Shown: positions 12,841 through 35,935 of the stretch, one piece after another
How the letters are laid out: every line of letters begins with the position of its first letter
How positions within the stretch are numbered: position 1 is the first letter of the stretch
Assembly (NCBI GenBank): GCA_009379915.1
Contig: WHSV01000002.1
Coordinates: forward strand, 1 to 64,000
DNA: 64,000 nucleotides
Direction: 5' to 3'
Source: Actinomycetota bacterium
Lineage (GTDB): Bacteria > Actinomycetota > CADDZG01 > WHSQ01
Program-made: the position numbers and the translations under genes
Notes under the pieces: generated by a model
Told to the model about the DNA's origin: nothing
What the model saw: only the letters and a program-made list of their open reading frames with translations
Database searches by the model: none

Positions 12841-12873
12841 CCGGTCGGTGCTCCCCTCGCCCTGGTTCTGCTC

Positions 12874-12885
12874 GCAATCGATTGC
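12874..12885. promoter_or_regulatory. putative LacI-family operator 1 (GCAATCGATTGC)
   Basis: This is a perfect 12-bp palindrome in the gap between the divergent Mo-hydroxylase large-subunit and FAD-subunit genes. It matches the GCAAWCGWTTGC word found at four other promoters in the window. A -10-like TAGGAT (12894-12899) follows 8 bp downstream on the plus strand, so a bound repressor would cover the -35 side of that promoter. Confidence 0.8.
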
Positions 12886-12907
12886 AGCGACTATAGGATA
12901 CCGCCCT

Positions 12908-17547: not shown

Positions 17548-18494
17548 CAGGCGTCCTCATCCGTCAATCCGTCCGACACGTCGGCGTCCTCCGGCTCGAG
17601 CTTCAAACCCGACGCGGCCGCCTCCTGCTCGAGCAGTACCGCGAAGTCGTCATCGAGGTAGCCGCGCCCGATGAGGCTCTGAACGATTTCGTGCGTGAGA
17701 GCGGCGAGCGGCATCGGCACATCGAGCTCGCGGGCGGCCTCCAGGCCGAGGTCGAAGTCCTTGCGCAACAGAACCGGAGTGAACGTGGGGCGATAGTCGA
17801 GATTCACGAAAGCGGGCGTCTTGTAGCGAGTGAACACCGATCCCATGACGCTCTTGTTCAGGAACTCGAGAAAGGCGCTGCGCTCGAGTCCGCCTTTCTC
17901 CGCCAGGACCGTGATCTCGGCCATGCATTGGGTCACGATTCCCAGCATCAGGTTGTGGCAGATCTTCGCCAGGCGCGCGGCGTCGGCATCGCCCACGTAG
18001 GTGCTGCCTGCTCCGAGCAGGTCGAGGTACGGCCGGGCGGTCTCGAACGCATCGGCCGGTCCCGAGACGACCAGCGTCAGCTTTCCGCTCGCCACGACCT
18101 CGGGATTGCCGCTGACCGGGGCGGCCAGAAGCTTGGTTCCGACCTTGTCACCGGCCACCCTCACCTCGGCGGACATGCCGGCCGAGATCGTCGTCGAGTC
18201 GACCAGGACCTTTGGCGCTGCGCCCTCCTGCGTGAGCAAGCCCTTGTCGCCCAACGTGATCTCGCGGAAATCATCGTCGCTCGAGACCATCGTGAACACG
18301 ATGTCGCAGTTCGCCAGCTCGGCCGGCGAATCCACGAGCACACCCCCCTCGGCGGCCAGGGGCTCGGCCTTCGCCCTCGTCCGGTTGTAGACGGACAGGT
18401 CGCATCCCGCCGCCAACAGGCGCTCGGCCAGCTTGAAGCCCATCCGGCCGGTACCGATCCAGCCGAGTTTGTGCCTCAGATCGTTCTCAACCAT
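17547..18494 (-). CDS. NAD(P)-dependent 3-hydroxyisobutyrate dehydrogenase-family oxidoreductase
   Basis: This is 315 residues from ATG 18494, which gives the standard N-terminus (KLGWIGTGRMGFKLAERLL). Rossmann motif GTGRMG; substrate motif region DSTTISAGMSAEV; catalytic lysine in ARLAKICHNLMLGI. The family oxidises beta-hydroxyacids such as 3-hydroxyisobutyrate, glycerate or tartronate. The C-terminal tail is acidic and longer than usual. It is the first gene of the operon with E1 alpha and E1 beta; the putative LacI operator 18539-18550 lies 45 nt upstream. A product semialdehyde would have suited the decayed aldehyde dehydrogenase downstream. Confidence 0.9.
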   Translation of the reverse strand: MVENDLRHKLGWIGTGRMGFKLAERLLAAGCDLSVYNRTRAKAEPLAAEGGVLVDSPAELANCDIVFTMVSSDDDFREITLGDKGLLTQEGAAPKVLVDSTTISAGMSAEVRVAGDKVGTKLLAAPVSGNPEVVASGKLTLVVSGPADAFETARPYLDLLGAGSTYVGDADAARLAKICHNLMLGIVTQCMAEITVLAEKGGLERSAFLEFLNKSVMGSVFTRYKTPAFVNLDYRPTFTPVLLRKDFDLGLEAARELDVPMPLAALTHEIVQSLIGRGYLDDDFAVLLEQEAAASGLKLEPEDADVSDGLTDEDA

Positions 18495-18538
18495 GTTCGG
18501 CCCTCTCGAGAGCGCTGGCCAACCTTCGTACATCCTGT

Positions 18539-18550
18539 GCAAACGATTGC
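18539..18550. promoter_or_regulatory. putative LacI-family operator 2 (GCAAACGATTGC)
   Basis: This 12-bp near-palindrome lies 45 nt upstream of the 3-hydroxyisobutyrate dehydrogenase-like gene, in the short gap after the amidohydrolase gene. It differs from the other four copies only at the W positions of GCAAWCGWTTGC and shares the flanking AG seen at three others. Confidence 0.78.
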
Positions 18551-18593
18551 AGGGTACCGCGAGGACGCGAGGGGGCGCAAGCGATGGCGTCCT

Positions 18594-19604
18594 CTATCCA
18601 CGGTCTTCCGTGAGCTCGATGCCCAGGGCGGCAAGCACGTTCGCGCCGAGAATCGCCCGCGTGGGGTCGTCGCCCAGCTCGGCCCTGCGGACCGTCATCA
18701 CCGGCTCGGGATCTCCCATGGGGAAGGGATAGTCGCTGCCGAGAACCACGCGATCTTCGCCCACGCGTTCGACCAGAAAGTGCAGTGCCTCGACTCCGTG
18801 AACCACGGTGTCGTAGTAGAAGCGTCGCAGGAGGCTCGAAGGAGGCACGCTCAGGTTTCTGCGAGTCCGCTTCCCCACCGACTCGAAGCCACGGTCCTGC
18901 CGGCCGATCTGGTAGGGCAGGAAGCCACCTCCGTGCGTCAGACAGACCTTCAGGTCTCGGTGGCGCTCCAGCACACCCCCGTAGATAAGGTGCGCGGCCG
19001 CGACCGTCTCCTCCGCAGGATTGCCCACGATGTTGTTGAGGAAGTAGCGAGACAGCCGTTCCGAACCGATTGACGCATAGGGATGGACGAGGACCAGCAC
19101 GTCCAGCTCCTCCGCCGCGCTCCAGAAGGGATCCAGCGCGTCGTCGTCGAGCTCCTTGTCGACTACCGAGGTCGCAATCTCGACCGCGACCATGCCCAGC
19201 TCGCGCACCGCGTACCTGAGTTCCTCGACAGCGAGATCAGGAGCCTGCAGCGGCACCGCAGCCATCGCCCAGAAGCGTTCGCCGTGCTTCGAGATCGTCT
19301 CGACGGTGGTCTCGTTCAGCGAACGAGCCAGCCATGCGCCGTCGGCCGGGTCGAGCACGTACGCGGAGAAGTCCATCCACGCCGACAGCACCTGCACGTC
19401 GACACCCTGGTCGTCCATCCACCTCAGTCGCTCGTCGAGGTCGAGCATGCCTTTGGGGAGGCTCTGGGTCGCGTCCCGCCCGGCGAAAGAGACGGTGCCC
19501 GCGCCGGTGAGCTCGACCGAGTGTCTCGCTCCTTCGGTCTCGATCTGGTCCAGGAGGCTCTGCGGAATGTAGTGACAGTGCAGGTCGATGCTCGGGCCGT
19601 TCAC
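18594..19604 (-). CDS. amidohydrolase 2-family (ACMSD-like) metal-dependent hydrolase/decarboxylase
   Basis: This is a 336-residue TIM-barrel protein. Metal and active-site residues are visible: N-terminal HxH in IDLHCHYIPQSL, His in LVLVHPYAS, His in CLTHGGGFLPYQIGR, and the final Asp in VVLGSDYPFPMGDP. This group includes 2-amino-3-carboxymuconate semialdehyde decarboxylase and related enzymes acting on ring-cleavage products. Its GTG start overlaps the stop of the LVIVD-repeat gene, giving a two-gene operon behind the operator at 20876. Decarboxylase versus hydrolase cannot be settled from sequence. Confidence 0.88.
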   Translation of the reverse strand: MNGPSIDLHCHYIPQSLLDQIETEGARHSVELTGAGTVSFAGRDATQSLPKGMLDLDERLRWMDDQGVDVQVLSAWMDFSAYVLDPADGAWLARSLNETTVETISKHGERFWAMAAVPLQAPDLAVEELRYAVRELGMVAVEIATSVVDKELDDDALDPFWSAAEELDVLVLVHPYASIGSERLSRYFLNNIVGNPAEETVAAAHLIYGGVLERHRDLKVCLTHGGGFLPYQIGRQDRGFESVGKRTRRNLSVPPSSLLRRFYYDTVVHGVEALHFLVERVGEDRVVLGSDYPFPMGDPEPVMTVRRAELGDDPTRAILGANVLAALGIELTEDRG

Positions 19605-21020: not shown

Positions 21021-22046
21021 ATGGCGACCTCTCCCGCCACCCTCCGAGACGTCGCCCGGCGCGCGGGCGTCCATGCCGGAACCGCGTCGCGCGCGCTCAA
21101 TCCCGCGACGCGTTCGCTCGTCAACCCGGATACGGCCAACAAGGTCATCCAGGCCGCCGAGGAGCTCGACTACCGGCCGAATCCGATCGCGCGCGGGCTG
21201 AAGACGAACAAGACCTTCACGCTCGGCGTTCTCATTCCCGACCTGACCAACCCGCTGTTCCCGCCCATCGTGAGAGGCATCGAGGACACACTGGCCACGG
21301 TGGGTTACACCGCGCTTCTGGCCAACTCGGACAACGACCCCGAGAAGGAGCGCCTCCACTTCGAAACCATGAAGGGGCGCCAGGTCGAGGGCTTCATCAT
21401 GGCCACCGCCGAGCGGGACCACCCCCTGATCGAGGACGCGATCGCGGCAGACGTACCCATCGTCCTCGTCAACCGGACGGTGGACAGCAGCCGGGTCTTC
21501 GCGGTCATCAACGACGACCACAGGGGCACGGCGCTGGCGGTCGATCACCTCGTGGGGCTCGGTCACCGCCGCATCGCCCATGTGGTCGGGCCGGAGCGCT
21601 ACTCGACGGGCAAGGCGCGCCGCGAGGGTTTCTTCACCGCCATGAAGAAAGCCGGACTCGAACCCGATCCCGGCATCACGCGTGACACGAACACGTTCAC
21701 GGAGGAGGAAGGCGCGCGCGTCTTCAAGGCTCTGTTGGACGAGGGCGGCGACTTCACCGCGGTTGTCGCCGGCAACGACTTGCTGGCCCTCGGCTGTTAC
21801 GACGTCATGGCCGATGTCGGACTGAGTTGTCCCGACGATCTGTCCATCGTCGGTTACAACGACATCCCCTTCCTCGACAAGCTCCGGCCCCCGCTAACCA
21901 CCATCCGCATTCCGCACTACCAGATCGGGGTGCGCGCCACAGAACTCGTGCTCCAGCGCATTCAGGATCCGGCTACCGAGCCCGTTACCGTGCAGCTTGA
22001 CCCCGAGCTCGTCCTGCGAGGGTCGACCGCGCCCCCGCGCGCCTGA
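21021..22046 (+). CDS. LacI-family transcriptional regulator
   Basis: This is a 341-residue regulator. The N-terminal helix-turn-helix is TLRDVARRAGVHAGTASRAL followed by the hinge helix region YRPNPIARGLKT. The C-terminal periplasmic-binding-protein-like effector domain starts at FTLGVLIPDLTNPLFP and includes VVAGNDLLALGCYDV and LSIVGYNDIPFLDKL. It would bind a small catabolic effector and release palindromic operators. GCAAWCGWTTGC at five promoters around it has the central CG typical of LacI/GalR sites, so this protein is the best candidate for their reader. The upstream gap holds one copy, suggesting autoregulation. Confidence 0.93.
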   Translation: MATSPATLRDVARRAGVHAGTASRALNPATRSLVNPDTANKVIQAAEELDYRPNPIARGLKTNKTFTLGVLIPDLTNPLFPPIVRGIEDTLATVGYTALLANSDNDPEKERLHFETMKGRQVEGFIMATAERDHPLIEDAIAADVPIVLVNRTVDSSRVFAVINDDHRGTALAVDHLVGLGHRRIAHVVGPERYSTGKARREGFFTAMKKAGLEPDPGITRDTNTFTEEEGARVFKALLDEGGDFTAVVAGNDLLALGCYDVMADVGLSCPDDLSIVGYNDIPFLDKLRPPLTTIRIPHYQIGVRATELVLQRIQDPATEPVTVQLDPELVLRGSTAPPRA

Positions 22047-22416: not shown

Positions 22417-23784
22417 TCAGGAGCGTTCGCGCAGTTGCGGGTATTGGTTCGTATGCAGCACGCAGGCTGTGTCGTGCTCCGGACCTACCCTCTCCAACCG
22501 CACTTCCTCGACCGGGTCGAAGGCGACGGAGACTCTCTTGTCGCTGCGCTTCAACTGGCTGAGTGACCTCTTCATTACGTCCGGGACCGCATCGGACTGC
22601 AGCTGATCTACCAGCACGGCCGCTTGCGCCTCGGTTCCGAAGTCGAGTTCGGCGGAGAAGTCGGAGTGTCGCTCCACCGCGCTGACGCCCTCGATCGACA
22701 CTCCGCTGCTCTCGAGTTGGCGCACGACGTCATCGACATCCCATCCACAGAACTCAGTCGCAACGGGACAGCGGGTGTGGAACCGGCAGCCTCGCGGGGG
22801 CCGGGCCGGATCCGGTATCGGCCCCATCAGCCGGAAACCGTCACGCTCCTCCGACCCCCCTGTCGGGTCTGCTGCGATCAACGCTTCGGTATAGGGGTGA
22901 CGTGGGTTCTGGAAGACCTCGCGCGACGGGCCCGTCTCGCAGATCTGGCCCAGGTACATGACCACGATCCGGTCGCTCATGTGCCGCACTACGTTGAGGT
23001 CGTGCGTAATGAACAGGTAAGTCAGACCGTGTTCCTGCTGCAACCGGTGCAGAAGATTCAGGATCTGGGCCTGCACCGAAACATCGAGCGCGCTCGTCGG
23101 CTCATCGAGAACGATGAAGTTCGGGTCGAGAGCCAGGGCGCGCGCAATCGAAATACGTTGGCGCTGGCCTCCCGAGAACTGGTGCGGGTAACGGAAGAGA
23201 TGCTGCTCACCCAAGCCCACGCTGTCCAACAACTCGATGACACGGGCGTTCAAGTGACTCCCCGACGCCTCTCGGTAGACCTTCAGCGGCCGACCCACGA
23301 TGTCCTTGACGAGCTGTCGCGGATTGAGCGACGAGAAGGCGTCCTGGAACACCACCTGGCAGTTCCGCCGGTACTCCGCCCACCGCTTCTTCGGCATGGC
23401 GTCGATCCGATAGAGGTGGGTGAGCTCTTTGAGTCTCTGGTCCTGCTCGGCCGTGCGGCCGTCGCTCGGTGTGTTCAGCAGGTCGTCGAGCTCGCGGTGC
23501 GGCTCCGATTCGAGCCCGAAATACACGCCGCCTTCGGTTGGGTTCAACAGCCCACTGATGCAACGGCCGAGAGTCGTTTTCCCACAGCCGCTCTCGCCCA
23601 CGAGTCCGACCGTTTCACCGCGCCGAATATCGAAGCTGACATCGTCGACCGCCCGAACATGGCCCGCAACCCTCTGCAGGACACCCTCCTTGATGGGAAA
23701 GTGCCTGCGGAGGTTACGAACGGACACGAGGTATTCGCTCGCCTCATGGGACCGGTCGCTCATCTGCATCGCGGTCATGGTCAT
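22417..23784 (-). CDS. oligopeptide/dipeptide ABC transporter ATPase, OppF-like
   Basis: This is a 455-residue ATPase of a peptide/nickel-type importer. Walker A is GLVGESGCGKTTLGR, Q-loop QVVFQDAFSSLNPRQ, signature FSGGQRQRISIARAL, Walker B FIVLDEPTSALDVSVQ, and H-loop YLFITHDLNVVRHMSD. The oligo_HPY tail contains the cysteine pattern GCRFHTRCPVATEFC. It is longer than usual OppF (about 330): there is an insertion of roughly 50 residues between Walker A and the Q-loop (around LDDLLNTPSDGRT) and about 100 extra residues at the C-terminus. Its ATG overlaps the OppD stop. It is the last gene of the five-gene transporter operon. Confidence 0.92.
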   Translation of the reverse strand: MTMTAMQMSDRSHEASEYLVSVRNLRRHFPIKEGVLQRVAGHVRAVDDVSFDIRRGETVGLVGESGCGKTTLGRCISGLLNPTEGGVYFGLESEPHRELDDLLNTPSDGRTAEQDQRLKELTHLYRIDAMPKKRWAEYRRNCQVVFQDAFSSLNPRQLVKDIVGRPLKVYREASGSHLNARVIELLDSVGLGEQHLFRYPHQFSGGQRQRISIARALALDPNFIVLDEPTSALDVSVQAQILNLLHRLQQEHGLTYLFITHDLNVVRHMSDRIVVMYLGQICETGPSREVFQNPRHPYTEALIAADPTGGSEERDGFRLMGPIPDPARPPRGCRFHTRCPVATEFCGWDVDDVVRQLESSGVSIEGVSAVERHSDFSAELDFGTEAQAAVLVDQLQSDAVPDVMKRSLSQLKRSDKRVSVAFDPVEEVRLERVGPEHDTACVLHTNQYPQLRERS

Positions 23785-25070
23785 TGAGTTTCACTAACTT
23801 GGCTCTGCGGCATGAGATCAACGGGGCACCCGAGGTCCTGCGGATCGTCGTACAGGAAGCAGGCCGCGCGGTGCTGCTGTTTCCTCGTCAGGAGCTGAGG
23901 CTCCCTTGCCGCGCATATGGGCCCCGCGTGCGGGCAACGCGAATGGAATCGGCAGCTCGGCTCGGGATCCACTAACTCGGGAACGGTTCCCTCGATCGCG
24001 GCGAGCTCGCCTCTCGCTTGTTCGGCAGTAGGGACCGCAGCGAGCAGCGCCCTCGTGTACGGGTGAAGGGGGTCGTCGAAGAGCTGCTGGGTGGTGGCCG
24101 TCTCGACCAGCTTTCCCGCGTACATCACCGACACGCGATCACTGATTCTCTTCACCAGGGAAAGGTCGTGGCTGATGTAGAGGACCGCAGCGTGATGCTG
24201 CTCCTGCAAGTCTTGGATCAGGTCGAGGATGCGGGCCTGGATGGTCACGTCCAGGGCCGTGGTGGGCTCGTCCGCGATCAGCAGGTCCGGATCGCACGCC
24301 AGTGCCTGCGCGATCATCACACGTTGCTTCATTCCGCCCGACAGCTCGTGCGGATAGCTGTTCATTACCTTGGCGGGGTTGGGGATCCGAGTGGCGGAGA
24401 GGGCGGACGCAATCCGCTCATCGAGCTCCCGCTCTAGCCGCTTCTCCATCGCTCTGAACGGGGGAAGGTCGAGCAGCCTCCGCTCGAAGAACGTCGAGTG
24501 GCGGTGCGCAGCTCGCCGTAACAGTGGCCGGGTCCCGGGGGGGCCGGCCACAATTTTCGCATCCCGAAACAGCTCCGACGAGCGATGCTCGGCGAAGACC
24601 TCCGCCAGTTGCTGCTTGACCGACAGGGCCGGGTTCAGCGCCTTGGCCGGATCCTGAAAGATCATCGCGATTCGGTTCCCGCGGATGCCTCGCAATTGCT
24701 GGTCGGGGATACGCAGGAGGTCTACCGCCTCGCCCGAATTGCGTGGACGGAACGACACCTCCCCGCCCGCGTAGACGCCGGGCGGTGTCGGAACGAGTCG
24801 GAGGAGCGATTTGGCGGTCACGCTCTTGCCCGAACCCGTTTCTCCCACGAGACCGAGAGTCTCGCCCTCGTGAATATCCAGGGTCACCCCATCGACCGCA
24901 TGCACCATCCCGCGCCGGGTTGCAAAGTGAACTCGCAGATCGGTCACCGACAGAAGAGGCTGCGCGGAGACTGGAGCTGCTGCCACGCCTGGGCGGTCGT
25001 CTCGACGAGAACCCGAAGATGGGCGGTTCGAATGCAGGGCCTCGTCGGCGGCAGTATCAGATTGTCTCAC
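23781..25070 (-). CDS. oligopeptide/dipeptide ABC transporter ATPase, OppD-like
   Basis: This is a 429-residue ATPase. Walker [19 protein letters not shown]-loop [12 protein letters not shown], signature [15 protein letters not shown], Walker [18 protein letters not shown]-loop [14 protein letters not shown], and oligo_HPY cysteines [15 protein letters not shown] are all present. Between the Q-loop and the signature there is an insertion of about 60 residues (from [15 protein letters not shown] to [12 protein letters not shown]) not typical of OppD. The N-terminal 35 residues are low-complexity and the start may be internal. It overlaps the OppC stop and pairs with OppF as the heterodimeric motor. 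Confidence 0.92.
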
Positions 25071-25999
25071 CGTCGCTCGCTCTTCGGGTCTAGGACGTCC
25101 CGCAGACCATCACCCAAGAGGTTGAAAGCGAGTGACCACAGAAAGACCATCGCCCCTGCGAACGTCGCCACCCACCATCGGCCGGCGATGATGCCCGACT
25201 GACCCTCGCTCACGAGGTTTCCCCACTCGGCGAGACCGGCTTCGGCGAGACCGATGAAACTGAGCGTTGCGCCGATCAGCACGACGTGACCCATGTCGAC
25301 GGTCGCCTGCACGACCACAGGCGTGATCGAGTTGGGCAGCACGTCCTTTAGGAAGATGCGCCATCGCTTGTCCCCCATGACGCGCGCTGCATCGACGTAT
25401 TCGTTCTGTTTCACGTGAATGATCTGGCCCCGAATGATGCGTGCGTACTTCACCCAAAACACGACCGCCAGGGCCAGAATGATGTTGCCGAAGGCGGGGC
25501 CGAGAACGGCCGCGATGGCGAGCGCGAAGATCAGCTCCGGGACCGACAGGAACACGTCCACCAATCGCATGAGGACCTCGTCCCACTTGCCCCCGAGAAA
25601 CCCGGCGAAGCTGCCCACCGCGACTCCAATGACCACCGTAATGGCGACGACGATGATCGAGAGCCGCAGGGATGTGCGAGCGCCCCAGACGATTCCGTAG
25701 AGCACGTCTCCACCGGTAGGCGTGGTCCCCAGAACGTGTCCATCGGTTCCCGGCGGGACGTTAACGGAGCTGAAGTCCCTGGGCATCTGGTAGGCGTTCG
25801 GTGTGTTGGGCTCGATCAACAAAGGCGCGAACAGCGCCATCAGCAGGAACAAGACAACGATCACTCCGCCGATGAGGGTCGTCGGATTTCGCAAGCTCTC
25901 CCGCGCGATCTCGCTAAGTCGTCGTGTGCGAGTTGCAAGAGCCCGGAGTCGCCCGTCGACGGGGCGAATGACGCCGCCGACCTCTGCCGTTCTAGCCAC
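25067..25999 (-). CDS. oligopeptide/dipeptide ABC transporter permease, OppC-like
   Basis: This is a 310-residue membrane permease with an N-terminal OppC_N segment (LRNPTTLIGGVIVVLFLLMA) and the binding-protein-dependent transport domain. The EAA loop reads YVDAARVMGDKRWRIFLKDVLPN, which contacts the ATPases, followed by the family motif at GLAEWGNLVSEG. About six membrane spans. The GTG start lies 6 nt after the OppB stop. Family certain; the transported ligand may be a peptide or a non-peptide such as an opine, metal chelate or heterocycle. Confidence 0.92.
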   Translation of the reverse strand: MARTAEVGGVIRPVDGRLRALATRTRRLSEIARESLRNPTTLIGGVIVVLFLLMALFAPLLIEPNTPNAYQMPRDFSSVNVPPGTDGHVLGTTPTGGDVLYGIVWGARTSLRLSIIVVAITVVIGVAVGSFAGFLGGKWDEVLMRLVDVFLSVPELIFALAIAAVLGPAFGNIILALAVVFWVKYARIIRGQIIHVKQNEYVDAARVMGDKRWRIFLKDVLPNSITPVVVQATVDMGHVVLIGATLSFIGLAEAGLAEWGNLVSEGQSGIIAGRWWVATFAGAMVFLWSLAFNLLGDGLRDVLDPKSERR

Positions 26000-26005
26000 C
26001 TGTGC

Positions 26006-27019
26006 CTAGTCCCCCAGTACCACTCGACGATCGAGATACGCGTATGCAACGTCCACCACGAGATTCACCGCAAGGAAGATGATGCTGGTGATCAGCACGT
26101 AGGACATGATGGTGGCCTGATCACCCTGGAGAACGGCGTCGGTCATCCACCGGCCGAGCCCCGGCCAGTTGAAAATGAGCTCAACGACAACCGTGCCCTG
26201 CAACAGGAAGCCCCAGCTGAGTCCGATCACCGTCATCGTCGGCATCAGCGCGTTTCGCCGCGCGTGGCGACGGATGACGAGTCGCTCGGGCAGGCCCTTC
26301 GCGCGCGCGGCATCGACGTAGTCCTCACCCAGTTCTTCGACGAGCGAGGACCGCATCATGCGCGCGATGATCGCCGTGCTCCCGTAACCCATCGTTATCG
26401 CCGGAAGGGCCAAGTGCCACAGCGCATCCGTAAACGCGCCGAAGTCCAGGTTCAGCAGCGAGTCCACCGTGTACAGACCGGTGGGATGACCAATGCGCGC
26501 GTAGATCGACGGATCGGCGCGTCCGAGCGGAGCCCAACCGAAGCCCAGATAGAAGACGATCAAAAGCAGGAGCCCGAACCAAAAGATCGGAATGCTCGCG
26601 CCGCTGATCGCCACGACCCTCGTAAGGTGGTCGCCCAGTTTGTTCTTTCGGGCCCCCCCGAACGTCCCCATGCTCACGCCCAGCACGACCGCGATCAGCG
26701 CAGCGAGCATGGCCAGTTCCATGGTCGCCATGAGCTTCGGCAGGATGATCGAGGAGACCGGGGCGGCCGATACTCCAGACCAACCCAGATCTCCTCGCAC
26801 CACACCCCCGAGCCAGGCGATGTACTGCTGCGGAAGAGATTCATCCAGCCCGTAGCGCTCCTCGATTTTGGCGACCTCGGCCGGCGTCATTTCGTGCTCG
26901 ATGTAGATCCCGATGGGTGAGCCACCCACTCGCGACAATCCGAAGACCAGTATGGAGACCCCGAGCATCAGTATGGGCAGCGTCAACAGACGCCTTGCTA
27001 TGTACTCACGGACCTGCAT
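26006..27019 (-). CDS. oligopeptide/dipeptide ABC transporter permease, OppB-like
   Basis: This is a 337-residue permease with the OppB N-terminus (YIARRLLTLPILMLGVSIL) and the EAA loop DYVDAARAKGLPERLVIRRH followed by ARRNALMPTMTVIG. About six membrane segments. AAAGGAG upstream of the ATG supports the start. The periplasmic region after the first span contains the usual helical segment (AEVAKIEERYGLDESLPQQY). It follows the binding-protein gene by 31 nt and precedes OppC by 6 nt. Confidence 0.92.
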   Translation of the reverse strand: MQVREYIARRLLTLPILMLGVSILVFGLSRVGGSPIGIYIEHEMTPAEVAKIEERYGLDESLPQQYIAWLGGVVRGDLGWSGVSAAPVSSIILPKLMATMELAMLAALIAVVLGVSMGTFGGARKNKLGDHLTRVVAISGASIPIFWFGLLLLIVFYLGFGWAPLGRADPSIYARIGHPTGLYTVDSLLNLDFGAFTDALWHLALPAITMGYGSTAIIARMMRSSLVEELGEDYVDAARAKGLPERLVIRRHARRNALMPTMTVIGLSWGFLLQGTVVVELIFNWPGLGRWMTDAVLQGDQATIMSYVLITSIIFLAVNLVVDVAYAYLDRRVVLGD

Positions 27020-27050: not shown

Positions 27051-28760
27051 CTAGCCCTTGTCGTAGAAGCGCCACCGCAGCGTCTTCCAGAGCGGGTTGT
27101 AGACAAAGCCGTCAACCCATTCCCGGTAGGCCTGCGCGTTCACCTCCTGCGCCGGATAGATCCACATCGGGTCCTCGTAGAGCATGGGCAGCAGTTCCTG
27201 GTATATCGCCTCACGCTCGGCTACGTCGGTGGTGGCGAAACCAGCGTCGATGAGCTCGGCGATCTCGTCCGGGTTCTCGTAACCGTTGGCGAAACCGAGG
27301 CGCTCGCCCCACTCACCCTCGGGGTGCTGATAGGTCGACAGGTAGTAGTGAGGATCCACAAAGGGGTCCGCGTTCTTGATCCACATCGCGTACTCGAACG
27401 GAGAGGCACCGTGTGCCTCGTCGAATTGGCTTTCGGACACGGTCCGCACGTTGATCCTGAATTCCGGGTTAAGCGCTTCGATGCTGTCCTTGAGGATCAG
27501 TCCGATCGGCTCGAACGCGGGGTTGTCCTCGACCAGCACCGAGACCGAGAAGCCCTCGTCCCACACCCCGGCGTCCCTGAACAGCTGCTCGGCTTGTTCG
27601 AGGTCCTGCGAGTACACCGGAGCGTCCGGGTCGTATCCGAGGACGCCCGGCGGAATGTACGTCGCCGGCTCACCGAGGCCGCCCAGGATCCCGTCGATGA
27701 AGGCGTCGTAGTCGAACGCGAAGTTAAACGCCTGCCTGATTCTCCTGTCGTGGAAGAAGTCCGTCGGGATCGTGTCGCCGCTCGGAAGAGCACCCTCCGG
27801 AATGTTGAGGTTGAAGGCGAGCTGGAAGGGCTCGAGGAGCAGACCACCGGTATCGAGAACGACTCCCTCCGCGTCCTCGAGCTCCGGGGCGAAGGTTGGC
27901 TGGAACTGGATCGCGTCGTAGTCGCCGGCCCTGAGACCGAGCACGATCGCGCTCTCCTCCGGGACGTTCTGCCAGCGAGCATCGAGCGTCGCCGGCTCAC
28001 CCCAGTAGTCATCGAAGACCTCGAAATTGAGCTGCTCGTTCCGCTCCCAGGAGATGAACTCGTGGGGGCCGGTTCCCACCATGTTCCCGTCCATGAACTC
28101 GTTCGGCTCATCGGCGGTCACTCCCCCATTGCTCTCGACCGCTTCCATGCTGACGATCGCGGCGGGAGTCGAATACACGACGGAGCTGACGAAGGCCGCG
28201 TTCGGTTGCTGGAGCGTCACCTCGAACGTGAAGTCGTCGACGGCGCGGGTCTCGGCGATCGTGTCGCTGAGCGTGCTCGCCTGCCCCTCCGGGAGGTTCA
28301 TCTCCATGGCTCGGTCCCATGAGTACTTGACAACCTCGGCCGTGAGCTCCGAGCCGTCGTGGAAGGTAACTCCCTCGCGGATGGGGAAGGTGTAGGTCAG
28401 GCCGTCTTCGGACACGAGACCGTTCTCCTCGGTCGGCACCTCGGACGCGAGCGCGGGTATGGGCTCCGGTCCATCGGGACCGATGTCAACCAGGAACTCG
28501 TAGACTTGGATGATGGCCTGCTCGCCGTACTCGCCGAGCGCGGCGCGAGCGGGGTCAAGAGTCGTGGGCTCCCCATCGAGGGCGTGGACGAACACCCCCG
28601 GGTTATTGACGTCACCACCCGCGTCCTCGCCGCCCAGCTCCTCCGTGTCCGTGGCCGCCCCGTCGCATGCGGCCGCCAACAGCAGAGCGGCGGCCACCAG
28701 GGCCCATCTCGCAAGCACCGACTTCCTTCTGGTAGCGGACCCTCCCATGACCCATCCCAT
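27051..28760 (-). CDS. peptide ABC transporter substrate-binding lipoprotein (SBP_bac_5, OppA/DppA-like)
   Basis: This is a 569-residue extracytoplasmic binding protein. The lipoprotein signal peptide ends at LLLAAAC with Cys 32, followed by an acidic Gly-rich linker. SBP_bac_5 landmarks: VFVHALDGEPTTLDPARAAL, YTFPIREGVTFHDGSELTAE, MVGTGPHEFISW and the C-terminal YQELLPMLYEDPMWIYPAQ. The ATG at 28760 has AAAGGAG at good spacing. It is the first gene of the transporter operon and diverges from an M24-family gene across operator 4, so import and catabolism are probably switched together. Ligand unknown. Confidence 0.93.
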   Translation of the reverse strand: MGWVMGGSATRRKSVLARWALVAAALLLAAACDGAATDTEELGGEDAGGDVNNPGVFVHALDGEPTTLDPARAALGEYGEQAIIQVYEFLVDIGPDGPEPIPALASEVPTEENGLVSEDGLTYTFPIREGVTFHDGSELTAEVVKYSWDRAMEMNLPEGQASTLSDTIAETRAVDDFTFEVTLQQPNAAFVSSVVYSTPAAIVSMEAVESNGGVTADEPNEFMDGNMVGTGPHEFISWERNEQLNFEVFDDYWGEPATLDARWQNVPEESAIVLGLRAGDYDAIQFQPTFAPELEDAEGVVLDTGGLLLEPFQLAFNLNIPEGALPSGDTIPTDFFHDRRIRQAFNFAFDYDAFIDGILGGLGEPATYIPPGVLGYDPDAPVYSQDLEQAEQLFRDAGVWDEGFSVSVLVEDNPAFEPIGLILKDSIEALNPEFRINVRTVSESQFDEAHGASPFEYAMWIKNADPFVDPHYYLSTYQHPEGEWGERLGFANGYENPDEIAELIDAGFATTDVAEREAIYQELLPMLYEDPMWIYPAQEVNAQAYREWVDGFVYNPLWKTLRWRFYDKG

Positions 28761-28945: not shown

Positions 28946-30241
28946 ATGCGAGCGACCGACTTCGCCGAGGCCCGTGCCGCCATCGACGACATGGGGAACT
29001 TTGCCAATCTGACCAACACGGGATGGCACCACGATGCCGTCTACGAGACCTTCTCGGATGCCGAGTACCGTCGCCGCTACGAGGCGGTATACGCCCAGAT
29101 GGACGCTCTGGGACTCGACGCACTGATCGTCGGAGGGGGGCCGAGCCACTGGAGCTCGGGCGGGGGCATGCTGTGGCTTACGGGGCACTGGGAGTGGCAC
29201 GCCCTGGCCTGTTACGTGCTCGTCCCCCGCCGGGCCGAGCCCGTTCTCGTCTACTCCATGGGTGGCAGCCACCTCGAGTCGATCCGGCTGCTGTCGTGGG
29301 TGACAGACGTCCGTCCCTCGATGGGCGGACGCTTCGGCCGCGTGCTCGCGGAGGCGATCGTGGAAAAGGGTCTCGATCGCGGCCGCATCGGCCATCCACC
29401 GATAGACACGCGCCACATGGATTACATGCCCCTGAATCAGTACCGCGACCTTCAAGACGCGTTGCCGGATGCGGAGCTTGTGCTCACCGACGACATATTT
29501 CACGACCTCTTCGTCGTGAAGTCGGCCGAGGAGCTCGACTGCGTTCGCGTTGCGGGCCGGTTGTGCGTCGACGCGTTCGGTGCCATGGTCGATCGCGCCC
29601 GCCCCGGCGCCACTGAAGAGGACCTGCGAGCAGCCGCGGCGAGCGCGATCTATGAGGGGGGCGGAGAGGTCGACTTCCTCATCATTGGTTCCACCTCCAC
29701 CCACGAGCCCCATCTCATCTTTGGCAATCCTCGCCCCTCCCGTCGCGCTCTGAAAGACGGAGACGTTGTCCTGAACGAACTGGCGGCCGGCTATCGCGGC
29801 TATACGGCTCAGATCGGGATGCCGATCTTCGTCGGCGAACCCGAGGGGTCAGCGCGCCGGTTCTTCGAAGAGGTTACGCTGCCGGGTTTCCTGAGGATAG
29901 AAGCGGAGCTGCAACCCGGCAGGACGATGAACGACGTCGAGCGCGCGGCTCGCTTCTTCAGGGACAACGGCTACCAGTCGCGGCCGATCCACCTGCACGG
30001 AATCGACCTCGTGACAGGCCCCCCTCACGTGTACGTGGGCCACGGGTCCGACGAAGTGATACGCCCCGGCCAGGTCCTGATGCTCGAGCCCAATCCCATA
30101 CGCGCGGACGGCAACCTCGGCATGTTCTTCGGCCACACCTACATCGTCACCGAGACCGGCAGCGAGAGAATCACCGACTACCCGCTCGATATCGTGATCA
30201 CGAAAATAGACAGGAAGGAGAGACGTGACTCAGCGCATTGA
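28946..30241 (+). CDS. M24-family (creatinase/Xaa-Pro peptidase-fold) protein lacking metal ligands
   Basis: This is 431 residues from ATG 28946 (GAGAGGAG upstream); a longer frame would include the operator. Creatinase_N domain (residues about 40-190) and pita-bread M24 domain follow. At the five canonical metal positions (D, D, H, E, E) I read Asn 277 (VVLNELAAGY), Gln 289 (YTAQIG), His 351 (HLHGID), Glu 381 (LMLEPNP) and Gly 396 (FFGHTYIVTE). Three ligands are therefore lost, which argues against a metallopeptidase. Creatinase itself is a metal-free member that hydrolyses a C-N bond. It is the first gene of the plus-strand operon with two hydrolases, a flavoprotein and a permease. Confidence 0.85.
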   Translation: MRATDFAEARAAIDDMGNFANLTNTGWHHDAVYETFSDAEYRRRYEAVYAQMDALGLDALIVGGGPSHWSSGGGMLWLTGHWEWHALACYVLVPRRAEPVLVYSMGGSHLESIRLLSWVTDVRPSMGGRFGRVLAEAIVEKGLDRGRIGHPPIDTRHMDYMPLNQYRDLQDALPDAELVLTDDIFHDLFVVKSAEELDCVRVAGRLCVDAFGAMVDRARPGATEEDLRAAAASAIYEGGGEVDFLIIGSTSTHEPHLIFGNPRPSRRALKDGDVVLNELAAGYRGYTAQIGMPIFVGEPEGSARRFFEEVTLPGFLRIEAELQPGRTMNDVERAARFFRDNGYQSRPIHLHGIDLVTGPPHVYVGHGSDEVIRPGQVLMLEPNPIRADGNLGMFFGHTYIVTETGSERITDYPLDIVITKIDRKERRDSAH

Positions 30242-31190
30242 GCGGCCCGCCGGGTGGCGCTTCCACACCGGGAAGCCCGTCGTCGAGCCACTCGACTTCG
30301 TCACCGACCTTGAGGGCGAGCCCCCACTGTCGTTGCACATGATCTACACGCTCGACGGTGCCTACGTCCCAGCCGTCGTGCGCCAACCGGGGGCGCCCCC
30401 ACCGTGGCCGGCGGTCATCTGCTTTCACGGCGGATCGGGCGGCCTCGGTCACTCGTTTCTCGTCGAGCAGATGCGCAACCGGGGCTGGTTGTTCGATCGA
30501 CTGGCCGACGAGGGCTACCTGGTCTGCAACGCCGAGGGCCGAATGGAGAACGAAGACCAGTACGACAAGGATCTCCCGGCCGTCCTCGACCATCAGGACG
30601 TGGCCGAGGTCTTTCGCTACGTTCAGCGTCTCTCCGTCGTCGACCCGCAGAGAATCGGAACCTTCGGCGTCAGTCACGGAGGGGAGATTCAGATGAAGCT
30701 CATGGCCGAGATCGGTGAGGGTCCCGCGGCCATGGTCCCCAGCGAGCCCGCGGTGATCGAGTTCCTCGGTCTCCAGCACGAGGGAGGCGCCGACGAGGGC
30801 TGGGCTGTCGAGGACAGCTCAGGCCCCCGCGTCGAGGAGAAGCTCCAGTTCCGGCACGACGTGTCGGATGACGAGATCGACTTCCCCGCGGCGTGGGAAC
30901 GAATCCAACGCATCTCGGATGACGTTCGAATCCTCGTGCTTGGTCGAGACGACGACCACCTCCAGGGTCTCTTCAAGAAACTGCACGAGCTCCTCACGCG
31001 GGCGGGCAAACAGGCCGAGTGGGCGACCTTCGATCATCCAGAGCACGCCTATCACTGGGGGCCCGAACGCAGCGGGCGTGGCTATGAACCGGACGACATC
31101 CAACAGGCAACGATTGATCGCCTCATCGAGTTCCTGAACGCCAACGTGCGAGACCTCTCGAGCCGGCCGGTCGTAGAGCCGGCCACCTGA
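30225..31190 (+). CDS. alpha/beta hydrolase (prolyl oligopeptidase/dienelactone-type)
   Basis: This is a 321-residue serine hydrolase. The oxyanion region AVICFHGGSGGLGHSF, nucleophile elbow GTFGVSHGGEIQ (Ser near residue 154) and candidate catalytic His in DHPEHAYHWG are visible. The acid may be in RILVLGRDDDH. The GTG start overlaps the 3' end of the M24-family gene by 17 nt, so the two are coupled. Substrate may be an ester, amide or lactone formed during catabolism of the imported compound; this is inference. Confidence 0.87.
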   Translation: MTQRIERPAGWRFHTGKPVVEPLDFVTDLEGEPPLSLHMIYTLDGAYVPAVVRQPGAPPPWPAVICFHGGSGGLGHSFLVEQMRNRGWLFDRLADEGYLVCNAEGRMENEDQYDKDLPAVLDHQDVAEVFRYVQRLSVVDPQRIGTFGVSHGGEIQMKLMAEIGEGPAAMVPSEPAVIEFLGLQHEGGADEGWAVEDSSGPRVEEKLQFRHDVSDDEIDFPAAWERIQRISDDVRILVLGRDDDHLQGLFKKLHELLTRAGKQAEWATFDHPEHAYHWGPERSGRGYEPDDIQQATIDRLIEFLNANVRDLSSRPVVEPAT

Positions 31191-31207: not shown

Positions 31208-32266
31208 ATGGACGACCGAGTAGCGAGCGCGATTGCGCACTGGAAGCCGCGCTTCACCGCGAACGGAATCGCGGCATCCGACTTCGAGCGGATCACGCAC
31301 GACCTCCAATGCTGGGATGAATGGTGCGGCGCGTGGTCGCGCGCCGGACGGGAGCACGAGGACCTCGGTCGCGAGGCCCTGGCCGCTCACCGTGCGCTTT
31401 CGGCGGGGGCGCATCTGCGGCAGGCGGCCGTCCTGTACCACTTCGCCAAGTTCGTGTTCGTAGAGGATCCCGACCAGATGAGGAGTGCACACATGAGCGC
31501 CGTGGGGTGTCTCACCGATGCCCTGCCCTATCTCGACCCGCCCGGCGAGCGGCACGAGATCCCCTTTGAAAACGGCGCTCTCGTCGGGATCCTTCGGAGA
31601 CCGTCCGGCAGCGGCCCGCACCCCGTCGTGGTGCTCGTGCCCGGGCTGGACTCGGCGAAGGAGGAGTTCGCGCCCACGGAAGATCTTTTCCTCGAGCGAG
31701 GCCTGGCGACCTTCTCCGTTGACGGGCCGGGCCAGGGGGAAGCGGAGTACGACCTGGCGATCAGGGGTGACTGGGAGGTCCCGGGTTCTGCGATCGTCGA
31801 TTACCTCTCGGCGCAAGGCGGCATTGACCCTGATCGAATCGGATTGTGGGGGGTGAGTCTCGGGGGTTACTACGCGCCACGAATCGCCAGCGGAGTCGCC
31901 GGCATCCGGGCGTGCATCGCGCTGGCGGGACCCTACGACTTCGGTTCCATCTGGGACGGCCTCCCCGTGCTCACACGCGAGAGCTTTCGGGTTCGTTCGA
32001 AGGTCGACACCGAGGACGATGCGCGGGGTCACGCCCAAAGCCTGTCCCTCGAGGGACGAGCCGGGGCCATCACCGCTCCGCTCCAGATCGTCATGGGCAA
32101 GCAAGATCGTCTGATCCCATGGCAACACGCGCAGCGACTGGCGGACACGACCGGCGGCGAGGCCTGCCTTCTGTTGCTCGAAGATGGCAACCACGGCTGC
32201 GCCAACGTCGCTTACAAGCACCGCTATCGAAGCGCCGACTGGATGGTTCGGCGACTCACAACCTGA
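31208..32266 (+). CDS. alpha/beta hydrolase resembling FrsA / 2,6-dihydroxypseudooxynicotine hydrolase
   Basis: This is a 352-residue hydrolase with an all-helical N-terminal domain of about 115 residues and a C-terminal alpha/beta domain. Motifs: VVVLVPGLDSAKEEF oxyanion loop, nucleophile elbow GLWGVSLGGYYAPR, acid in VMGKQDRLIP and His in EDGNHGCANVAYK. This domain order is that of the FrsA-like family, which includes the C-C bond hydrolase of nicotine breakdown. The assignment to that branch is from overall layout, not an alignment. It follows the first hydrolase by 17 nt and precedes the flavoprotein gene. Confidence 0.87.
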   Translation: MDDRVASAIAHWKPRFTANGIAASDFERITHDLQCWDEWCGAWSRAGREHEDLGREALAAHRALSAGAHLRQAAVLYHFAKFVFVEDPDQMRSAHMSAVGCLTDALPYLDPPGERHEIPFENGALVGILRRPSGSGPHPVVVLVPGLDSAKEEFAPTEDLFLERGLATFSVDGPGQGEAEYDLAIRGDWEVPGSAIVDYLSAQGGIDPDRIGLWGVSLGGYYAPRIASGVAGIRACIALAGPYDFGSIWDGLPVLTRESFRVRSKVDTEDDARGHAQSLSLEGRAGAITAPLQIVMGKQDRLIPWQHAQRLADTTGGEACLLLLEDGNHGCANVAYKHRYRSADWMVRRLTT

Positions 32267-32295: not shown

Positions 32296-33837
32296 ATGCA
32301 GGAACCAGACGTCGTCGTTGCGGGGGCCGGACACAACAGCCTGATAGCCGCCGCGTATCTCGCCGTTGCGGGTCTGCGAGTGACCGTGCTCGAGGCGCGC
32401 GACGTAATCGGGGGAAACACGGTTACCGAGGAACTGACGCTTCCCGGATACCTGCACGATTCGTGCTCGAGCGCTCACGTTCTCATTCAGTCCAACCCGC
32501 TTATGCGCAACAACGAACTGCGTCTCGACCGCTACGGCCTGCGCTACGTTTTCACGGACCCCCCGTTGGTCATGCCGTTCCCCGACGGCGCGAGCATCAC
32601 GATGTGGCGCGATCGAGATCGCACCGCGAGCGAGCTCGAGCGCTTCTCGCCGGGCGATGCGAAGTCGTATTTGAATCTACTTACCGAGTGGGACGAGCTG
32701 AAAGCGCACCACGGCTTCCTGAGTAATTCGCCTCCGAGCGCGTCCACGGTGGACTCAGATGTGGGCCGGCGCTACGCGCGCCTGAATGCTCGCAGCGCGA
32801 AGGAGGTCATCTTCGATCGCTTCGAGGACCCGCACGTTCGTTCCCTGCTCATGTGGCTCGCGTTCGCCACGATTCAAGATCCCGAACGCCCCGGCACGGG
32901 CATCCTTCCCATGTCGGTGACCGCGGGACGACAGGAGTTCGGGTGGGCCACGCCCATCGGCGGCTCGGGAATGCTCCCGCAGGCTCTCCGCCAACTCATC
33001 GAAGACAACGGCGGCAGCATCGTCACCGGCTCACCGGTGACCGAGATAACGGTCACCAAAGGACGAGCGTCGGGCGTCGCTACGGCCGATGGAACGAGGT
33101 ACCCGGCGCGGCGGGCGGTGCTGTCGACGATCCACGCCGCGCTGCTCCCGGAGGTCCTGCCTGAGGGTTCCCTGCCAGCTTCGTTCGTGTCACGCGTACG
33201 AAGTTGGAAGCCCGGGTTGACGCTCTTCGCGGTTCACCTCGCGCTCCGTTCGAAACCGAGGTTCAAGACGGACGGGGGACTGCGGGGTTCGGTCGCGGGA
33301 GCCATCGGCTCGTCCGATGGGCTTCTCGCGCAGATCGAGGCGCATCGCTCCGGACTGACCGACGAGCGCGACCCCTGGGTGCTCGTCGTCAATCCGTGCG
33401 AGGTGGACCCGGCGCGCGCTCCGAACGGGGGCGCGACCCTGAAGCTGCTCACCATCGCGCCACGGAGTCTCGACGGGGCCGATTGGACAACCGAGAAACA
33501 TCGTTTCGCCACAAAGCTGGTCGAGCTCGCGGCCTCTCGGATGGACTTCGAGGAGGACGACATCCTCGCGCTTACACCCGAGAGCCCAATCGATCTCGAA
33601 GAGCGCAATCCACACAACCTGTGGGGATCCTGTCACGGGGGTGAGCTGTCCGCCGAGCAGTCCGGAGTCAATCGGCCGGCCCCCGGCTACTCAACCTATC
33701 GAATGCCGGTCGACGGGCTCTATCAGACCGGGGCGACGACTCACCCTGGTGGCTCCGTGTCGGGACGGCCGGGTCGGAACGCCGCGCGCGTCCTGCTCGC
33801 CGACCTCGGTCTCGACCCGGACCTGGTGGTGGTGTGA
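32296..33837 (+). CDS. phytoene desaturase-like NAD(P)/FAD-dependent oxidoreductase
   Basis: This is 513 residues from ATG 32296, with GAGGAG 6 nt upstream; the open frame further upstream is antisense-like composition and is left out. The dinucleotide motif VVVAGAGHNSLIAAAYLAVA and EARDVIGGNTVTEE define the phytoene desaturase/PYROXD2-like amine-oxidase superfamily. The C-terminal FAD motif is DGLYQTGATTHPGGSVSGRPG. Members desaturate or oxidise C-C or C-N bonds. The next gene starts within its stop region (GTGTGA), showing coupling. Probably one oxidation step of the regulon's substrate. Confidence 0.9.
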   Translation: MQEPDVVVAGAGHNSLIAAAYLAVAGLRVTVLEARDVIGGNTVTEELTLPGYLHDSCSSAHVLIQSNPLMRNNELRLDRYGLRYVFTDPPLVMPFPDGASITMWRDRDRTASELERFSPGDAKSYLNLLTEWDELKAHHGFLSNSPPSASTVDSDVGRRYARLNARSAKEVIFDRFEDPHVRSLLMWLAFATIQDPERPGTGILPMSVTAGRQEFGWATPIGGSGMLPQALRQLIEDNGGSIVTGSPVTEITVTKGRASGVATADGTRYPARRAVLSTIHAALLPEVLPEGSLPASFVSRVRSWKPGLTLFAVHLALRSKPRFKTDGGLRGSVAGAIGSSDGLLAQIEAHRSGLTDERDPWVLVVNPCEVDPARAPNGGATLKLLTIAPRSLDGADWTTEKHRFATKLVELAASRMDFEEDDILALTPESPIDLEERNPHNLWGSCHGGELSAEQSGVNRPAPGYSTYRMPVDGLYQTGATTHPGGSVSGRPGRNAARVLLADLGLDPDLVVV

Positions 33838-34580
33838 GCCTCGAGCTCGACACCGTTCTGATAATGGTGGTGGCGATATCGCTCGGCGGCCTCGTCAAGG
33901 GAGTAACCGGGCAGGGTTTGCCGCAGATCGCGATCCCGGTCATGGCCACGTTTCTCGGCGTGGAGGCCGCGGTCGTCATCATGACGATCCCCGGAATCGT
34001 CACCAACTCGTGGCTGATGTGGAAACACCGTCACCACTTCGGCGGTACGCGCGACCTGCCGGTCCTCCTGGTCACGGGAACCGCCGGAGTCGTGGCCGGG
34101 ACCATCCTGCTCGACAGCCTCAACGACAAGGTCCTCTCCTTGACGCTGGCGAGCGTGATCGTTGGCTACGCGGTCATCTTCTTCACCCACCCCAGCCTTC
34201 GGCTCGAACCTGAGGTCACGCGCTACACATCGGCGCCGCTCGGTGTGGCCTCCGGGGTGCTCCAGGGAGCCACGGGTGGGTCGGGTCCGCTGCTTGCCAC
34301 CTATCTTCACGGCTATCGCCTGGACAAGCAGGTCTACGTCATCTCGATCACGACCATCTTTCAGGTCTTCGCGGTGGTGCAGTCGGTCACGCTGTTAGGA
34401 GTCGGGCTCTACACGACCGAGCTGTTCTTCTTGAGCCTGTTGTCTCTCATTCCCATCATGGCGATGCTGGGAGTCGGAGTGCGCCTCACCGACCGGATTT
34501 CGCGACGGACCTTCGACCTGATCGTGCTGGCGGTGCTCCTCGCAACCGCAGTGAAGCTCATCTTCGACGGGCTCACCTAA
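33834..34580 (+). CDS. TSUP (TauE/SafE) family permease
   Basis: This is a 248-residue protein with about eight membrane segments. The family hallmark repeats are GLVKGVTGQGLPQIAIPVMA near the N-terminus and GVASGVLQGATGGSGPLLATY in the middle. TSUP proteins move small organic or sulfur anions such as sulfite, sulfoacetate or organic acids, often as exporters. The GTG start overlaps the flavoprotein stop. As the last gene of the operon it could remove a waste anion or import a substrate. Ends 8 bp before the convergent M24-family gene. Confidence 0.9.
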   Translation: MSLELDTVLIMVVAISLGGLVKGVTGQGLPQIAIPVMATFLGVEAAVVIMTIPGIVTNSWLMWKHRHHFGGTRDLPVLLVTGTAGVVAGTILLDSLNDKVLSLTLASVIVGYAVIFFTHPSLRLEPEVTRYTSAPLGVASGVLQGATGGSGPLLATYLHGYRLDKQVYVISITTIFQVFAVVQSVTLLGVGLYTTELFFLSLLSLIPIMAMLGVGVRLTDRISRRTFDLIVLAVLLATAVKLIFDGLT

Positions 34581-34588
34581 CCTCGCGC

Positions 34589-35935
34589 CTACTTCGGTGC
34601 GGCCGCCCCTTCACCTTTCGCGCTCTGCGTCACCGCCTCGGTCGTGGCGCGATTGAGCGGAGACTGTGTTTCGCGCGTCGTCGGGAGGGGGCCGGTGGCG
34701 GTGTAGTAGCGCTGTCCCGCGACCATGAGCTGCTCTGCGGGGAAGCGGGTAATGACCTCGGACCCGTCCGCCGTGACCACGAGCTGCTCCTCGATGCGGG
34801 CGGCCGACCATCCATCGGCCGCGGGCCAGAAGGTCTCGAGCGCGAAGACCATGCCCTCCTCGATGGGCTCTGGGTGGTCGAGCGATACGAGCCTGCTGAA
34901 AACGGGCTTCTCCCAGATCGACATGCCGACGCCGTGCCCGAACTGCAGGGCGAAGGCGGCCTCCTCGTCGGGGAAACCGAAATCCTCCGCCTTGGGCCAG
35001 ACCTCTACCACGTCGGCCGTCGTCACGCCCGGTTTGATGAGTGCGATCGCCTCGTCGAGCATGGCCCTGCATCGGACGTATGCGTCAACCTGAACCTGCG
35101 ACGCGCTTCCTATTGCGAAGGTCCGGTAGTAACAGGTCTTGTAACCCATATAACTGTGGAGTATGTCGAAATACGCAGGGTCGCCGGGTCGCAGAACGCG
35201 GTCGGTGTAGACGTGCGGGTGCGGGTTGCAGCGCTCTCCTGAGATGGCATTGACACCCTCGACGAACTCGGAGCCCAGATCGTAGAGAACCTTGTTCACC
35301 AACGCGACGCACTCGTTCTCTTTTATCCCCGGCTTCATGGCGCGGTAGAGCTCCTCGTACGCGGCATCGACCATCATGCACGCGGTGTTCAGAAGAGTTA
35401 TCTCATCCTCGGTCTTGATGACCCGCGCCCTCTGCATGAGCTGTTGCCCGTCGACGACCTCGATGCCCTCGGCCTGGAGTGCAAAGAGTACGGGGAGCTC
35501 GATGGCATCGACGCCGACCGGGTCGCCGAGAAGACCGCGCTCCTCGAGCTCGACGCGGACCTTCTTGGCCACGTCCTCCGCTCGTCCCGACTCGGGCGAC
35601 ATCGCCCCGCGCAGAGTTGAGATGCCGGCGCGCGACCTCTCCCCCAGCCATGGATTGTAGAGCTGATGATGCCGCGCGGCCGAGCCGAAGTCCCACATGA
35701 TCGGCTCGTCGCCTCTTGGGAGCAGACAGAAGCGGTTGAGCTTGTCCTGAGCCCAGGTCCCGATATGCGTCGCCGTTATGTAGCGGATGTTGTTCATGTC
35801 GAAGCACAACAGCGCTCCGCACTCGGAGTGACTCAGAACGTCCTTGGCGCGCTCGAGCCGCTGCGTTCGCAGCCGGCCCATGTCGACGCGCTCCTCCCAG
35901 TCGACGTTCATCAGCCCAAAGGTCTTGAGGCCCAT
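34589..35935 (-). CDS. second M24-family (creatinase/DddP-like) protein
   Basis: This is 448 residues; the ATG has GAGGAG upstream. The N-terminal domain (LLCFDMNNIRYITATHIGTW...IMWDFGSA) resembles the subgroup that contains the DMSP lyase DddP and creatinase-like enzymes. In the catalytic domain, metal positions read Asp 257, Cys 268 (in YKTCYYRTF, where Asp is expected), His 334 (FGHGVG), Glu 367 and Glu 382. One ligand is thus replaced by Cys, so standard aminopeptidase activity is doubtful. It is a single-gene unit preceded by operator 5. Confidence 0.87.
   Translation of the reverse strand: MGLKTFGLMNVDWEERVDMGRLRTQRLERAKDVLSHSECGALLCFDMNNIRYITATHIGTWAQDKLNRFCLLPRGDEPIMWDFGSAARHHQLYNPWLGERSRAGISTLRGAMSPESGRAEDVAKKVRVELEERGLLGDPVGVDAIELPVLFALQAEGIEVVDGQQLMQRARVIKTEDEITLLNTACMMVDAAYEELYRAMKPGIKENECVALVNKVLYDLGSEFVEGVNAISGERCNPHPHVYTDRVLRPGDPAYFDILHSYMGYKTCYYRTFAIGSASQVQVDAYVRCRAMLDEAIALIKPGVTTADVVEVWPKAEDFGFPDEEAAFALQFGHGVGMSIWEKPVFSRLVSLDHPEPIEEGMVFALETFWPAADGWSAARIEEQLVVTADGSEVITRFPAEQLMVAGQRYYTATGPLPTTRETQSPLNRATTEAVTQSAKGEGAAAPK

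Follow-up and report, generated by a model that had tools for sequence, protein, structure and literature searches.

Genes at the locus

The window analyzed here is the whole 64,000-nucleotide stretch at positions 1 to 64,000 of contig WHSV01000002.1 from an Actinomycetota bacterium (assembly GCA_009379915.1). It contains a gene for an M24-fold protein at 28946-30241, set in an island with the following gene content:

10594-14253, large subunit on the minus strand, other two on the plus strand: three-subunit molybdenum hydroxylase
15572-19604, minus strand: E1 beta, E1 alpha, 3-hydroxyisobutyrate-dehydrogenase-like and Amidohydro_2 proteins, syntenic in genome G003
21021-22046, plus strand: LacI-family regulator (PF00356, PF13377), kept in genomes G003 and G252
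22417-27019, minus strand: Dpp/Opp-type ABC transporter, two ATPases and two permeases (open reading frames; order kept in G252)
27051-28760, minus strand: family 5 solute-binding protein, divergent neighbor of the M24 gene (PF00496, 225 bits)
28946-30241, plus strand: EQH-type M24-fold protein, 431 amino acids (open reading frame, translation, Pfam)
30225-31190, plus strand: alpha/beta hydrolase overlapping the end of the M24 gene (weak S9/BD-FAE matches; same order in G003)
31208-32266, plus strand: alpha/beta hydrolase related to 2,6-dihydroxypseudooxynicotine (DHPON) hydrolase (2jbw, E value 1.4e-50)
32296-33837, plus strand: FAD amine-oxidase/CrtO-like oxidoreductase
33834-34580, plus strand: TauE/SafE family transporter (PF01925, 88.2 bits)
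34589-35935, minus strand: second M24-fold protein, DddP-like by sequence, with a D-C-H-E-E site

Much of this gene set recurs in G003 and G252. The reading frames at 22417-27019, which were named by sequence features, we take to be the ATPases and permeases of a Dpp/Opp-type system. The hydrolase at 30225-31190 had no match in the PDB at a threshold of 1e-3. The second M24-fold protein has a cysteine in place of the second aspartate ligand and scored 126 of 600 bits against the DddP model; its homologs occur in the G252 island.

An earlier interpretation of this DNA from its letters (hereafter, the sequence-only reading) had called an M24-fold protein at 28946-30241. The open reading frame, its coordinates and the fold were all borne out by translation and by Pfam, where Peptidase_M24 (PF00557) scored 88.3 bits (cut-off, 23), placing the protein in that fold family. 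Creatinase_N scored slightly under its cut-off. The ATG start at 28946 is backed by L065, a 75.7% identical homolog with an ATG at the matching place.

The metal site departs from that of M24 metallopeptidases

The five ligand positions were assigned from phmmer alignments to the prolidases 1pv9, 3q6d and 4ege. Their codons, all on the plus strand, and the conservation of the residues are as follows:

29777-29779: Glu278, first metal-ligand position (Asp in peptidases, Glu255 in DoeA), 51/51
29810-29812: Gln289, second ligand position, 51/51
29996-29998: His351, His ligand position, 51/51
30086-30088: Glu381, fourth ligand position, Glu in the family and Gln, His or Lys in wider relatives
30131-30136: Gly396-His397, fifth ligand position and adjoining residue, Gly 50/50 and His 48/50

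The site reads Glu278-Gln289-His351-Glu381-Gly396, as opposed to the D-D-H-E-E of metallopeptidases, so the protein lacks the five-ligand set that defines the M24 metallopeptidases. Gln289, His351, Glu381 and Gly396 had been placed correctly by the sequence-only reading, but its first ligand, Asn277, was off by one residue and is ruled out: the invariant Glu278 aligns there. The same reading had counted three of the five ligands as missing. Three positions do differ, but one of them is a conservative Asp-to-Glu change that keeps the carboxylate. Other carboxylates or histidines in the metal site had been named there as evidence against metal loss, and in part they are present. With Glu278 at one ligand position and His397 next to another, metal binding by the protein is conceivable.

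A residue set fixed in the family and shared by more distant M24 proteins

A scan of the species-genome collection returned 54 family loci, 52-63% identical to the 28946-30241 protein. Their hosts are mostly Xanthobacteraceae and other Hyphomicrobiales, together with Actinomycetota, Betaproteobacteria and bins labeled Chloroflexi, Planctomycetaceae and Halorubrum. The family alignment comprised the query and 50 homologs, with four short or frameshifted loci (L056, L057, L059 and L061) dropped. Glu278, Gln289 and His351 were each invariant (51/51), and Glu381 and Gly396 were found in all 50 rows with a letter at those columns, one row being gapped. Residue 277 was variable, with 47 Met, 3 Asn and 1 Asp among the 51 rows. 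The fixation of E-Q-H-E-G across homologs from several phyla indicates that the pattern is not due to chance. At L056 (4246-5513) and L057 (7863-9210), the EQH-type genes run across two overlapping frames, which reflects either a frameshift or an assembly error.

Near the window's own genome, the family is rare. A member was carried by 1 other of 99 relatives (E value 1e-60) and by 2 others of 295 in a sample of the phylum (E value 1e-45). This patchy spread fits an accessory catabolic gene.

We also collected 52 further M24 loci, consisting of the 29 best M24 hits of relatives and 23 loci retrieved by similarity to the family alignment A1. Thirty-six of these have D-D-H-E-E sites, 11 (10 distinct genes) have E-Q-H-[Q/H/K]-G, and 5 have other sets. 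All 11 came from the 23 loci similar to A1 as opposed to 0 of the 29 best-hit loci, a group in which canonical proteins are overrepresented. When nine sequences of the E-Q-H-E-G and E-Q-H-Q-G types were aligned, no variation was seen at the Glu, Gln, His-Gly and Gly positions. Among relatives that keep E-Q-H, position 381 is Gln, His or Lys, and position 397 is Ala, Ser or Glu. Thus, Glu381 is not a class-defining residue. By these alignments, the conserved set is Glu278, Gln289 and His351 rather than the His and Glu singled out in the sequence-only reading. The best explanation is that the protein belongs to a broader class recognizable by Glu278, Gln289, His351 and Gly396 (E-Q-H-x-G), a set that would replace D-D-H-E-E. 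Several of the examined genomes hold more than one E-Q-H-x-G protein. No description of an E-Q-H class was found in a literature search that covered parts of the published texts.

Odd ligand sets were seen, in weak alignments, in three other M24 proteins (E-H-H-N-A in L123, Y-Q-H-H-G in L128 and D-E-H-H-A in L119), hinting at further M24 classes that may have lost the metal.

Comparison with characterized M24-fold proteins

An AlphaFold2 model of the protein, built from 46 sequences, had a pLDDT of 85.9 and a pTM of 0.85. In VIA-align, it was closest to DoeA (Z of 37.7), followed by creatinase (1chm; Z of 36.4, rmsd 2.5, 364 aligned residues) and by the best prolidase, 3q6d (Z of 35.9), the latter two being tied within 1 Z. 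Foldseek E values, unlike the Z ranking, put prolidases on top. The Xaa-Pro dipeptidases and aminopeptidases (M24B) share both the fold and sequence homology with the protein (1pv9, 1.9e-15), but their D-D-H-E-E contrasts with its E-Q-H-E-G. The ligand set and the nearest folds by Z, DoeA and creatinase, uphold the earlier view that a peptidase label would mislead and that a creatinase- or DoeA-like hydrolase is the better class, with creatinase and prolidase tied in the ranking.

Creatinase cleaves a C-N bond, using His232, Glu262 and Glu358 as catalytic residues. As the reference, we used a Paracoccus plasmid gene that lies beside a creatininase gene and matches 7yto at 2.7e-261. The creatinases (1chm, 1kp0 and 7yto) resemble our protein in fold and in the loss of metal ligands, and their Glu358 aligns with Glu381. 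They differ from it in that His232 falls on Gly260/Asn261 and Glu262 on Ile290/Gly291, placements that depend on the aligner, and in having Asn (250 in L070) at the Glu278 position. MAFFT and hhalign alignments differed by a one-residue shift at His232, Glu262 and His376. Creatinase His324 paired with His351 in some alignments and not in others, and the pairing of His376 with Gly396/His397 was likewise aligner dependent; the Glu381-Glu358 and Glu278-Asn250 (L070) pairings agreed in all. With only Glu358 of the three catalytic residues kept, membership in creatinase was ruled out. The proposal that the retained His and Glu form the creatinase catalytic pair is also not supported, as equivalents of His232 and Glu262 are missing and Glu381 is replaceable in relatives. 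PMC7568399 reports that creatinase retains >80% of its activity with EDTA.

The resemblance to DoeA/EutD (6twj, 6twk and 6yo9) comprises the pita-bread fold with the highest structural Z, the best NCBIfam match of the protein (75 bits) and a Glu at the first ligand position, where Glu255 of DoeA corresponds to Glu278. The two residues were paired by way of a DoeA-like protein used as a bridge, which scored 207 bits to 6twk. Glu255 of DoeA has reportedly been proposed as the residue that binds ectoine covalently. Unlike our protein, DoeA has Tyr and Met in place of His351 and Glu381 in the bridge alignment, and DoeA-like rows are without an equivalent of Gln289. The match amounts to 75 of 575 bits for NF038259 and 50 of 613 for TIGR02993, which ruled out membership. 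Judged by its residues, the 28946-30241 protein is neither creatinase nor DoeA, since it combines a DoeA-type Glu and a retained His with a Gln seen in neither. According to PMC8739950, the ligand-losing relative EutD cleaves a C-N bond.

DddP shares the M24 fold (4b28, Z of 29.7). Its metal ligands are reported to be invariant in PMC4108388; those of the 28946-30241 protein are changed. A score of 27.3 bits against an NCBIfam equivalog cut-off of 600 ruled out membership in DddP and disfavors the DMSP-lyase activity that the sequence-only reading had suggested assaying.

Phylogenetic placement

In both trees that we built, the family was a firm clade (100/100). The first tree set the family, a sister group, creatinase and a DoeA-like set apart from six M24 paralogs of the window's own genome (94/88). 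Two of these paralogs themselves deviate from the canonical site, reading D-C-H-E-E and N-C-H-E-E. By alignment, an N-C-H-E-E site occurs in the M24 protein L008 on contig C55 of the same genome. In the wider tree, where several branches were long and the bootstrap had not converged, creatinase grouped with DoeA (84/84) and elsewhere than the EQH rows, and the latter came together weakly (45/94; 50% of 200 bootstrap trees). The two trees thus disagree on the deep placement: the affinity to creatinase and DoeA suggested by one was not recovered in the wider tree.

Linkage to transporters and catabolic genes

Of the 49 loci with an upstream gene, 29 had a same-strand binding-protein gene directly upstream, as opposed to 8 of 429 other gene pairs at the same loci. 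The loci are related, so the Fisher P value of 3e-26 overstates the significance. The 29 upstream binding proteins consisted of 20 NMT1-type, 2 further NMT1-type and 7 TctC proteins, and the NMT1-type protein was accompanied by an SsuABC/TauABC-like permease and ATPase. Because the gene is linked to three types of binding protein, the substrate may differ between lineages.

A DHPON-hydrolase-like gene stood beside the EQH gene in the window, with one gene between them, and at L056, L080, L141 and L142. At L010, such a gene adjoins a short M24 reading frame. We checked nine genomes for DHPON-hydrolase-like copies. Seven had copies at least 49% identical, G107 had a 34% copy, and G100 had none. 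The copy was <1 kb from the EQH gene in four genomes (G000, G103, G104 and G252), about 9-23 kb from it in G031 and on a separate contig in G003; in G007, it shared a contig with an EQH-profile fragment recognized by the profile match alone.

Other neighbors of EQH genes include an intradiol dioxygenase gene that overlaps the EQH gene at L029, genes for creatininase, FAA_hydrolase and CN_hydrolase proteins close by, and genes of the BKACE and carboxymuconolactone decarboxylase families. At L139, a creatininase-family gene (2077-2820) shares a cluster with genes for an E-Q-H-Q-G M24 protein, E1 subunits and an FAA_hydrolase protein. On plasmid pl4 of Sphingobium sp. AntQ-1, an M24 gene in two frames (L071, 12001-13234) neighbors genes for an LLM monooxygenase, a flavin reductase, a cupin, an FAH-family hydrolase and a class II aldolase; the available part of PMC9836352 held no mention of this cluster.

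We ruled out a substrate assignment from the neighbors, given the differing transporter types (SsuABC/TauABC type with an NMT1 binding protein, TctC, and the family 5 binding protein) and the mix of nicotine-like, aromatic and amide chemistries. An organosulfur substrate, considered on account of TauE, the SsuABC-type transporters and the LLM monooxygenase, was set aside, each part being too generic to decide.

Possible function of the protein

In our best reading, the invariant E-Q-H-G residues, the predicted fold and the linkage to uptake and catabolic genes support a catabolic role. We consider it roughly an even call that the protein is a catabolic hydrolase of the E-Q-H-x-G class, acting on the M24/creatinase pita-bread fold without a dinuclear metal center and cleaving a C-N bond. 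The absence of metal is inferred from the lost ligands alone. The linked ABC transporter would import a small nitrogen-containing, possibly heteroaromatic, compound, which the protein would cut at a C-N bond. Glu278, in the place of DoeA Glu255, would serve as nucleophile or general base, His351 would serve as acid/base, and Gln289 would position the substrate or a water. The alpha/beta hydrolases, the FAD enzyme and the molybdenum hydroxylase would perform other steps of the same pathway.

C-N cleavage is favored over C-C cleavage. The DHPON-hydrolase and dioxygenase neighbors, which do C-C chemistry, speak against this choice, and together with the recurring FAA_hydrolase, BKACE and carboxymuconolactone decarboxylase family genes they would suit an enzyme of the same metal-independent class that acts in (hetero)aromatic breakdown as a lyase or by C-C cleavage (retro-Claisen or vinylogous-acid hydrolysis). 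We regard this as unlikely: the characterized ligand-losing relatives, creatinase and DoeA, cut C-N bonds, creatininase and CN_hydrolase neighbors suit nitrogenous substrates, and with C-C hydrolysis already performed by a neighbor, there is less need for another enzyme of that kind. A mononuclear metalloenzyme is similarly improbable. It would hold one metal on His351, Glu381 and either Gln289 or His397, with Glu278 nearby, and two carboxylates and one or two histidines do lie at or next to the ligand positions; DddP, moreover, was first reported metal-free and later shown to carry iron (PMC4108388). Against such a site stand the fifth ligand, which is Gly in 50/50 family rows, and the E-Q-H relatives with Gln or Lys at 381 and Ala, Ser or Glu at 397.

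The loss of ligands would also suit a pseudoenzyme, an M24-fold binding protein devoid of catalysis, and M24 proteins that are not peptidases are known, Ebp1/PA2G4 being one (PMC3888471). The invariant polar pocket residues and the strong operon linkage to transporters and enzymes suggest a catabolic step instead and make this explanation very unlikely. We give still less credence to an ordinary Xaa-Pro peptidase tolerant of altered ligands. Prolidases are the top Foldseek matches, and a dipeptide/oligopeptide-type ABC transporter adjoins the gene in the window, but three of the five ligand positions are altered and fixed, and other loci have SsuABC/TauABC-type or TctC systems rather than peptide transporters.

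Beyond the catabolic C-N hydrolase favored for the window, we tentatively advance a broader proposal, which we hold to be somewhat less than probable. The E-Q-H-x-G proteins, which are annotated as peptidases, would be a catalytic class of their own within the M24 fold, apart from peptidases, creatinase and DoeA, in which a metal-free Glu/His pair opens imported heteroaromatic or amide-type compounds, with DHPON-hydrolase-like partners, in undescribed catabolic pathways.

The observation made in the sequence-only reading is real in its corrected form, and the protein is a variant within a known fold superfamily. Its interest is moderate and lies in a residue set that does not vary in the family, reaches beyond it and is linked to operons. 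E-Q-H-x-G proteins, the plasmid relatives among them, carry M24 or Xaa-Pro peptidase labels, which recognition of the class would mend. The class would be one more case in which the pita-bread fold is put to use in the absence of its canonical metal site, and it points to uptake-and-degradation operons that could reveal the substrate.
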